A stretch of DNA of 64,000 nt from Chloroflexota bacterium (lineage in GTDB: Bacteria; Chloroflexota; Dehalococcoidia; Lucifugimonadales; Lucifugimonadaceae): positions 1 through 64,000 of the forward strand of contig JAQBUH010000003.1 of the NCBI GenBank assembly GCA_027624075.1. The letters are read 5' to 3'. Shown piece by piece: positions 3,814-58,013 of the stretch. Under the pieces are notes generated by a model. The model worked only from the letters and a program-made list of their open reading frames with translations. It made no database searches and was not told the origin of the DNA. A program made the position numbers and the translations under genes. Position 1 is the first letter of the stretch. Each line of letters starts with the position of its first letter.

Positions 3814-4503
3814 TCAGTGACCGTCGCCCTCGCCAGCCCCTTCACTCGCGCGCAGCTCCGCGCTCTCTGCCCGCAGCTCTCGCACGCGCTTCCATATGAA
3901 CCACGACACAACGATCATCACTGACCCTATGATCGGCACATCGAACGGCTTCGTGACCTCGCGGATGCTGTCGTAGTTCTCGCCGAGCGCCCAGCCGCCC
4001 CACGCCAGCCCCAGCGTCCACGGGAACGCGCCCAGGAAGGTGAAGGCGCTGAACCTGACCACATTCATGCGGGCGACTCCGGCGGGAATCGAGATGAAGC
4101 CGCGCACGCCGGGGATCATGCGGGCGATGAAGATGGTGATCTCGCCGCGGGTCTCGAACCACCTGTCCGCCCGCTCGAGGTCCCTACGAGTTATGAGGAA
4201 GTATTTGCCGTACTTCTCGATCAAGGGCCGGCCGCCTGCCCGAGCCAGGTAGTACTCGGCCAGCGAGCCGAGGAGCGAGCCTACCGCGCCGTAGAAACCT
4301 GCGAGCAGCACGAACTCGAAGCCCAGGTCCTTGTCCGCAACCAGCCGCCAGCCGGCAAGCGGCATGATGACCTCTGACGGCAGAGGAATCGCCGTGCTCT
4401 CTATCGACATGAGCACGATCAGCCCCCACCAGCCGAAGAACTCGTACATGTCGGTTGAGAACGTGAGCACAAACTTTTCGATTGCGTCGATCAGCTCTCG
4501 CAT
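3814..4503 (-). CDS. DedA family (SNARE-associated/VTT) membrane protein
   Basis: Polytopic inner-membrane protein of 229 aa, a normal DedA length. DedA proteins are undecaprenyl-phosphate or phospholipid transporters/scramblases linked to envelope homeostasis. Conserved features: an N-terminal re-entrant segment with E-S-T-A-I-P-L-P-S-E (about 34-43), matching the family E-x-x-x-P-x-P-x-E pattern, and RMIPGVRGFISIPAGVARM (about 128-146), the family arginine/PG signature, with hydrophobic segments around 20-50, 65-85, 150-175 and 190-210. The C-terminus is a short charged tail. Monocistronic; its 3' end faces the repeat-rich gap. The exact substrate is not deducible. Confidence 0.9.
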   Translation of the reverse strand: MRELIDAIEKFVLTFSTDMYEFFGWWGLIVLMSIESTAIPLPSEVIMPLAGWRLVADKDLGFEFVLLAGFYGAVGSLLGSLAEYYLARAGGRPLIEKYGKYFLITRRDLERADRWFETRGEITIFIARMIPGVRGFISIPAGVARMNVVRFSAFTFLGAFPWTLGLAWGGWALGENYDSIREVTKPFDVPIIGSVMIVVSWFIWKRVRELRAESAELRASEGAGEGDGH

Positions 4504-10074: not shown

Positions 10075-11408
10075 CCTCTTTCATAAGGCGGTCTGGTGAG
10101 GGAATAGGCTACCTGGGTGCTGGCCAGCCGCCTGAATCAGGGGATGGCGCCGTGCCACGGGCCACGGTTGGCCCCCTTCCGTGGCGTCCGGGGTCACAGG
10201 ATGGCCGTCTCAGGCGGTCTTTGGGCCAGCTTCGCGGCGATCTTCGCCATCCTGACCAGGTTGTAGGCGGTTGCGAGCACCTCGAACCAGAGCCCGTTGC
10301 GTGCCGTGCCCCTGTACCTCAACTTCCTCGATCCTCCCACCGTCTTCATCCAGCCGAAGATCTCCTCGACTCGTTTGCGCACCCGCTGGCTCTGCCTGTA
10401 GCTGGCATGCCGGGTCGTCCGCCCATCGATGGCTGAATGCAGCCGCTTTCTGGCCACGTGTGCCGTTGTGTTCATCACCCAGCACGTGTCTACAAAGTTG
10501 CCGGTGTCGTACCCCTTGTCAGCTCCTACCGTGATGCGCCTTTTCCCTGGTATCCGTTTGAGCATCCTGATCGCAGCCCTCTCCTCTGCCGTACCGGTTG
10601 CCTCTGTGAGCTCGGTATCCACCACAAGGCCATTGCGGTTTTCCATCAGGACGTGGCCAGCGAATGACAGACGGGCTTCCTTTCCCGGGCCCTTGCGGGC
10701 AAGCCTTGCTTCCGGGTCTGTAGTAGAGCGGTGAGTGCTGTTCAAACGGCGCTCTCCCTTGAAGTCCACCTCCCTGTTCCTGCCGCCGGAGCCGGAAGAA
10801 CCGGGTGGTGGATCATCTTCCCCTACAGGGCGGAAGCTCTTCAAAGAAGCCCATGCATCCAGCAATGTCCCGTCTACAGTGAAGTGGTCATCAGAGAGGA
10901 GATTCCGCCGCCTGGCCTCCGACACTACGGCGTCGAAGAATCTACGGGACACCTCGTGCTCAAGCAGGCGCTCACGGTTCTTGGAGAAGGTGGTCGGGTT
11001 GAATGCAGGGTCAGAGATGTTCAGGTCCAGGAACCACTTGAACAGGAGGTCGTACTGGAGGCGCTCACAGAACTGCCTCTCACTGCGTACTGAATAGAGG
11101 GCGATGAGCAAAGACGACTTCAGGAGCTGCTCAGGCGGGATCGAGGGCCGCCCGATGCGGGAGTACATCTGGTTGAAGACAGGCGAGAGTCCTGTGAGCG
11201 CGTGCTCCACGATCGACTTGATCTCCCGAACCGGATGGTCCTGCGGGACCATTTGGTCCGGGGTGATGGCAAGGAGCATATTGGCCTGCTGGTCCCTGTC
11301 GCCGCGCATCTCAGCCTCCTGACTACGCTCTGCTCTCATTCAAACTTCCTACAGCGTAGCCAATCCCATCACAAATCGCGAATCCAGCCAGAGTTTTTCA
11401 GCAGCCTG
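10050..11408 (-). mobile_element. IS5/IS1182-like insertion sequence
   Basis: An element of about 1.36 kb with one transposase. A 19-bp perfect inverted repeat bounds it: CTAGCAGGCTGCTGAAAAA at 10046-10064 and its exact complement at 11394-11412. The outer CTAG is palindromic and is probably the duplicated 4-bp target, leaving ends CAGGCTGCTGAAAAA. It interrupts the small membrane gene at 9769. The intact transposase and perfect ends suggest a recent arrival. Confidence 0.85.
10194..11339 (-). CDS. DDE transposase of the IS5/IS1182 type
   Basis: Transposase of 381 aa with an N-terminal DUF772-like region (RPSIPPEQLLKSSLLIALYS, about 65-84) and a DDE (RNase H-like) catalytic domain. Visible catalytic stretches are FTVDGTLLDAW (first Asp, about 153-163), GADKGYDTGNFVD (second Asp, about 270-282) and R-K-R-V-E-E-I-F-G-W-M-K (Glu, about 330-341). 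This is full family length, with no frameshift or stop. It lies centrally between the 19-bp inverted repeats. Assignment to IS5 versus IS1182 is not settled by eye. Confidence 0.9.
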   Translation of the reverse strand: MRAERSQEAEMRGDRDQQANMLLAITPDQMVPQDHPVREIKSIVEHALTGLSPVFNQMYSRIGRPSIPPEQLLKSSLLIALYSVRSERQFCERLQYDLLFKWFLDLNISDPAFNPTTFSKNRERLLEHEVSRRFFDAVVSEARRRNLLSDDHFTVDGTLLDAWASLKSFRPVGEDDPPPGSSGSGGRNREVDFKGERRLNSTHRSTTDPEARLARKGPGKEARLSFAGHVLMENRNGLVVDTELTEATGTAEERAAIRMLKRIPGKRRITVGADKGYDTGNFVDTCWVMNTTAHVARKRLHSAIDGRTTRHASYRQSQRVRKRVEEIFGWMKTVGGSRKLRYRGTARNGLWFEVLATAYNLVRMAKIAAKLAQRPPETAIL

Positions 11409-57279: not shown

Positions 57280-57303
57280 TCCCAATGCTTTGGACATGGT
57301 GCC

Positions 57304-57968
57304 ATGTCTAGCCGAAAATTGAAACTCACGGGATTTGTGAACCTTCAAGCACAATACCGTGAGGACAGGCGATGGTTTTTGCGAGAACTAGATAAGCTGC
57401 TTGGGCCAATAAGCTCTAGTTGGGCAGCGAACCAGTCCGACGTGATTCCTAGATTCGCTGAAGCACTGACGTGCCATATCGTCAACGGTCAGCTAGCGGA
57501 TGCTCGGAACCAAAAAGGATGGGATCTTAGAGACTATCTCAAAACTCCCTCTTCCAGCGGGAGAGGGCTGAGGTGAGGGAGAAGTTTCGAACTGACAAAG
57601 ACCGGCCGATTTGAGTTTTGAGATAGTCACTTAAACGCCGAAACGGCTCACGGATTCAAGTTAAAATACTCAGGAATCCAAGTCCAGATCGGCCAATCAA
57701 CCGTCTGGAACTCAAGTATGGTCTCGATGCTGAAGACGTAGCTGTATTATTCCTTGTAGCCTACGTTCCTCTCTTACTCGTTATTATTCCTTGCGATCAG
57801 CTAGCTAAGCTTCCCGAACACCTCGGTAAAAGCAGGTTTAACGATAGAATGTCAATTATTTTGACGGATACCGACAGGAAACGGTTCCAGAACCCTGCCC
57901 GTTTGCACGAATGGAAAGATTTAGGAATAGAAGTATTTCCTCTCCCTCCGGGAAGCCCAAGAAATAAA
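57304..57968 (+). pseudogene. Nuclease-like gene (GWDL...IQVK) split by a 100-bp MITE-like insertion
   Basis: The two halves flank the element at 57530-57629. Removing it and one copy of CTTA joins GAT CTT to AAA in frame, giving a protein of about 186 aa: MSSRKLKLTGFVNLQ to G-W-D-L-K-R-R-N-G-S-R-I-Q-V-K, ending G-S-P-K-K at the TAA 57966-57968. The restored G-W-D...I-Q-V-K (D at about 74, Q-V-K at about 84-86) fits the PD-(D/E)xK nuclease core; hydrophobic strand VAVLFLVAYVPLLLVIIP (about 115-132) follows. Nearest likely kin are restriction endonuclease-like proteins. As sequenced, the frame runs into the element and stops at 57574-57576. Confidence 0.75.
57530..57629. mobile_element. MITE-like element with 16-bp terminal inverted repeats
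   Basis: A 100-bp element with no coding capacity. GACTATCTCAAAACTC (57532-57547) is the exact inverse of GAGTTTTGAGATAGTC (57613-57628). CTTA is directly repeated outside (57526-57529 and 57630-57633). It interrupts a gene whose frame is restored by its removal. Confidence 0.8.
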
Positions 57969-58013
57969 AGAGGATGAAATATCATTCGGTGTGACAACGA
58001 CAAGAACTAGCCC

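Follow-up and report, generated by a model that had tools for sequence, protein, structure and literature searches.

The locus raises the question of what broke a nuclease-like reading frame, and whether its two pieces once formed a single gene. In the window (the whole 64-kb stretch of DNA that was analysed), this ORF is broken by a 101-bp element at 57530-57630 with TTA on both sides. Excision of 104 bases, i.e., the element and one TTA, gave a single frame. The features of the locus are listed below, each with the evidence used.

57280-58013: islet, probably acquired, in which the nuclease gene lies; flanked by a pentapeptide-repeat gene and a Gfo/Idh-type oxidoreductase gene (absent in four same-genus genomes; GC)
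57304-57529, forward strand: 5' half of the broken nuclease gene; encodes residues 1-75, including helix Glu53 and W73-D74 (open frame, joined translation, NhoI match over residues 50-87)
57527-57529: left TTA, target duplication (flank reading; TNA type known from the IS copies of genome G114)
57530-57630: 101-bp non-autonomous IS5-type MITE (terminal inverted repeats, TIRs, and alignment with a second copy)
57530-57547, forward strand: left TIR GAGACTATCTCAAAACTC (inverted-repeat comparison)
57613-57630, reverse strand: right TIR GTGACTATCTCAAAACTC (inverted-repeat comparison)
57631-57633: right TTA, target duplication (flank reading)
57634-57977, forward strand: 3' half of the broken nuclease gene; encodes residues 76-189, including Q84-V85-K86, and contains the stop codon (open frame after joining; homologues L136/L137)

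Borders and ends of the element

On the forward strand the element starts with GAGACTATCTCAAAACTC and ends with GAGTTTTGAGATAGTCAC. Its TIRs were identical at 17 of 18 bp and contained the perfect 16-bp core that an earlier, sequence-only reading had reported; the same reading's claim that the element has no coding capacity was confirmed when the ORFs were read, and no transposase gene was present. That reading had also described a 100-bp element with a CTTA duplication. The 104 bases to be removed are identical in both descriptions, but the borders were redrawn as 101 bp plus TTA. TTA was preferred because related elements duplicate TNA, and CTTA had been read because the last base of the element happens to be C.

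Two places in the 64-kb window had inverted repeats of 18 bp with at most one mismatch and comparable spacing, and 3 of 40 Markov-shuffled windows had them as well. Such a repeat is therefore common enough to be only suggestive when taken alone, and it was the second copy that was decisive against chance. This copy was found in the same genome on contig C1 (G000:C1, about 4398-4498), as a search proposed in the earlier reading had anticipated. It was identical to the window copy at 95 of 101 positions (6 differences) and aligned with it between unrelated flanks, which fixed the borders of the element. The genome yielded no third copy with these ends. The flanks of the C1 copy were unlike (TTA on the left, TAA on the right), as were those of several copies in other genomes. 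The unlike TTA/TAA flanks suggested a 2-bp duplication, but the nine IS copies of G114 showed a 3-bp TNA duplication; mutation, recombination between copies or assembly therefore accounts better for flanks that differ. The element has the features of the MITE class, being short, lacking a transposase gene, carrying IS-like TIRs and a TNA-type duplication (TTA/TTA), and occurring in more than one copy.

Probable IS5-family partner elements

The sequence AACTATCTCAAAA occurred at exactly two sites in the same genome, both on contig C56, where they bracket the remnants of an IS5-family transposase. The element so delimited is 979 bp long, with GTAACTATCTCAAAA at both ends and the flanks CTAA/TAAG in the transposase orientation, and it has 12-bp core ends in common with the MITE. 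The proposed search for a transposase with the same ends thus returned an IS5-family element, although its transposase is broken by several frame breaks. The fragments matched NCBIfam NF033580 (transpos_IS5_3) with E values of 1.7e-12 and 1e-17, below the cut-off and decayed, and they also matched Pfam DDE_Tnp_1, DDE_Tnp_1_2 and DUF4096. DDE_Tnp_1 had four matches in this genome, one of them being the partner IS on C56. No intact IS5-type transposase with these ends was found in this genome, a MAG that is 89% complete; it may lie in the missing part of the MAG or may have been lost. A 381-aa open DDE_Tnp_1-type transposase was observed on the minus strand of the window at 10194-11339. Its surroundings had no GACTATCTC ends, and it probably belongs to a different IS.

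Relatives carried IS copies with longer reading frames than that on C56. In G114, nine 930-bp copies were present, eight of the nine with an exact TNA duplication, and their flanks gave a CTNAG target. In G013, which belongs to the same family, a 923-bp IS had the ends GAGACTATCTCAATA and the flanks TAA/TAA; its end was identical to the left end of the MITE at 14 of 15 positions. Across the ISs of the window's own genome, G052 and G013, 13-14 of 15 end positions were common to the MITE. The ISs of G114 and G013 both have overlapping ORFA and ORFB, the two frames meeting at seven consecutive G, and ORFB of each scored above the NCBIfam IS5_3 cut-off. Overlapping frames in this IS family usually mean programmed frameshifting. 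IS5 elements of the IS427 and IS1031 groups with two frames have been listed in Amoebophilus (PMC3196728).

The IS427/IS1031-like groups of the IS5 family (NF033580) and their MITEs are among the closest known systems, with the same core end ACTATCTCAAAA and with TNA duplication within CTNAG-like targets. The ISs of these groups are autonomous elements of about 0.9-1.0 kb with overlapping ORFA/ORFB, whereas the 101-bp element lacks a transposase and its interior does not come from any of the ISs compared. Beyond the ends, no similarity was found between its interior and those of the ISs compared, indicating that the MITE is no simple internal deletion derivative of them. From the matching ends and the TNA duplications, we infer that the MITE was moved in trans by an IS5-family transposase.

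The interrupted gene and its homologues

When joined, the flanks encoded 189 aa and a stop codon (188 plus start-codon uncertainty); the single frame proposed earlier was present, though not at its length of about 186 aa. As it stands, the 5' half reads as an open frame 90 aa long, and no stop interrupts the 114 codons of the 3' half. This preservation of the 3' half suggests that the MITE insertion is not old.

Two further genomes of the phylum had homologues that crossed the junction and lacked the 101-bp insert. The homologue in G236 (L136, on G236:C39) aligned over residues 43-181 with an E value of 3.6e-16, and that in G493, an intact 294-aa frame, over residues 43-148 with an E value of 5.3e-8. 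The distance from QKG to QVK was 17 residues in both the restored protein and the G493 homologue. The sequence-only reading had named two observations that would speak against it, a lack of any homologue spanning the junction and the same insert at the same site in all homologues; neither was made. L136, the closest homologue, had a single in-frame TAG, and it may also be decaying or the TAG may be a sequencing error. Weaker candidates (L138-L140) fell inside other genes or were too short and were rejected. No homologue of the nuclease was found in 196 sampled relatives, and none in phages, plasmids or viral contigs at the sensitivity used.

Predicted nuclease active site and effect of the insertion

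A single-sequence search of the PDB with the restored protein gave one match, NhoI (E 0.01), and a profile search recovered NhoI at 2.9e-5. The top two profile matches, both designed helical repeat proteins, were weak hits that aligned with a single helix repeatedly, and they were set aside. NhoI has WD as its 'PD' motif and QVK as its '(D/E)xK' motif, and its active site also includes Glu50, from the first helix (PMC11347163). Residues E53, W73-D74 and Q84-V85-K86 of the restored protein were in register with NhoI and the catalytic order was kept. The PD-(D/E)xK-type core claimed in the sequence-only reading is supported by this match, which allows a strong inference of an active site of the PD-QxK type.

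Over 38 residues, the restored protein has the helix Glu, WD and QVK in the order and at the distances found in NhoI of the BisI family of modification-dependent restriction endonucleases (PDB 8q5n; PMC11347163), but the similarity does not extend beyond the catalytic core. The homologue alignment also touched PADLOC mREase_II (methyl-directed restriction enzymes) at E 0.0015, again a similarity of the core only. A protein of the BisI type would have to be similar over its full length and to cleave GCNGC that contains 5mC. In the five-sequence homologue alignment, one member each matched DUF6998 (PF22522; best E 6e-4) and PDDEXK_5 (PF11645; best E 0.002). The DUF6998 match was that of the G493 homologue; the restored window protein fell short of both families and reached no family in Pfam. 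The ancestral protein would have cut DNA, perhaps modified DNA. A more speculative reading, which we regard as unlikely, is that the restored gene represents a group of nucleases yet to be characterised, solitary, BisI-like and modification-dependent, that moves between genomes as a single gene into compact junctions and is then lost, here by an IS5 MITE.

The insertion point follows L75 and lies between WD and QVK; with 104 bases added, the reading frame is shifted. Since E53 and W73-D74 are parted from Q84-V85-K86 and the frame is shifted, no intact active site is expected from either half; inactivation of the nuclease gene by the MITE is a clear prediction.

Genomic setting

In four genomes of the same genus (G001-G004) the pentapeptide-repeat and oxidoreductase genes nearly abut; here they are about 734 bp apart. 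The nuclease gene had a GC content of about 47% vs 62% for the window, and it was probably acquired horizontally into the junction of these two genes. A low-GC gene in an otherwise compact junction, with a MITE within it, indicates a nested insertion. The simplest history is that a single nuclease gene was acquired and the MITE was inserted afterwards.

Explanations of the locus

In the proposed course of events, a solitary PD-QxK-type nuclease gene would have arrived horizontally between the pentapeptide-repeat and oxidoreductase genes. A gene-less MITE bearing ends recognised by an IS5-family transposase would then have inserted at CTTAA with duplication of TTA, and the nuclease would have been inactivated as its catalytic residues were separated and its frame shifted. 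We consider this whole account, an acquired solitary nuclease gene followed by inactivation by an IS5-derived 101-bp MITE, very likely.

Its rivals concern the nature of the element, the unity of the gene and the outcome of the insertion. The 101-bp unit could be a REP-like palindromic repeat with a structural or regulatory role and another way of spreading, its IS5-like ends being coincidental. Its interior does have a CCCTCTTCC/GGGAGAGGG palindrome, and the element as a whole can fold on itself (DNA fold z -4.3). However, the ends agree with those of IS5-family ISs at 13-14 of 15 positions, the TTA beside it fits the TNA that those ISs duplicate, and the interior motif is confined to the two copies in this genome, besides two weak partial matches, so that a REP-like origin appears very unlikely. 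Alternatively, the two half-frames may never have belonged to a single gene, or the assembly may have produced a chimera here. In favour of this are the 60 contigs of the MAG and the rarity of the gene, which is absent from the sampled relatives. Against this, the homologues of two genomes align in one frame across the junction, and joining restores exactly the 17 residues from QKG to QVK seen in G493; of all the alternatives this one is given the least credence, as extremely unlikely.

The remaining alternative accepts the insertion and takes it as a change of form, with the truncated 90-aa product or the product of the 3' half still functional. The open 5' frame and the stop-free 3' half are in keeping with this. 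The catalytic residues are nevertheless separated and each half is missing part of the site, which makes a working product highly improbable. Inactivation of an acquired nuclease gene by an IS5-derived MITE is ordinary and of a familiar type, and it leaves existing ideas on MITEs or restriction enzymes unchallenged; the nuclease group is of modest interest. The locus documents a nested insertion cleanly in a poorly studied environmental bacterial group. The ends and the target duplication tie the MITE to an IS5-family source, and active-site residues place a little-known nuclease group beside the BisI restriction enzymes.

Similar elements in other genomes

MITEs without a transposase but with the same kind of ends were common in relatives and extended to other phyla. 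They were present in Chloroflexus and Syntrophobacteraceae, and probably in Planctomycetota MAGs. A 16-mer scan of 84,980 genomes (257 Gb) returned 91 stretches, compared with about 120 expected by chance according to our own arithmetic. Because of this expectation, and because most stretches had no TNA flank, they were used only if TNA-flanked.

There were 57 AACTATCTCAAAA sites in G110 and 76 in G132, representing the ends of MITEs and possibly of ISs. Both genomes held dozens of MITEs with these ends, and the G110 copies that were read ranged from 87 to about 170 bp. The TNA trinucleotides flanking them often differed from one side to the other, and this suggests that the copies are old, have recombined with one another or were misassembled. 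In a Syntrophobacteraceae MAG, two 131-bp elements (L075 and L099) had the same ends around CACCCCGGCGGAAGCCGGGGTCCAG-like palindromes resembling widespread bacterial repeats; different dispersed palindromes may therefore travel between IS5-type ends. At 63-284 of the window, a 50-nt inverted repeat (84% complementary) on TGTCATTCTGAGCTTGACTCAGAATCTC-like sequence was observed, and it looks like a dispersed palindromic repeat.
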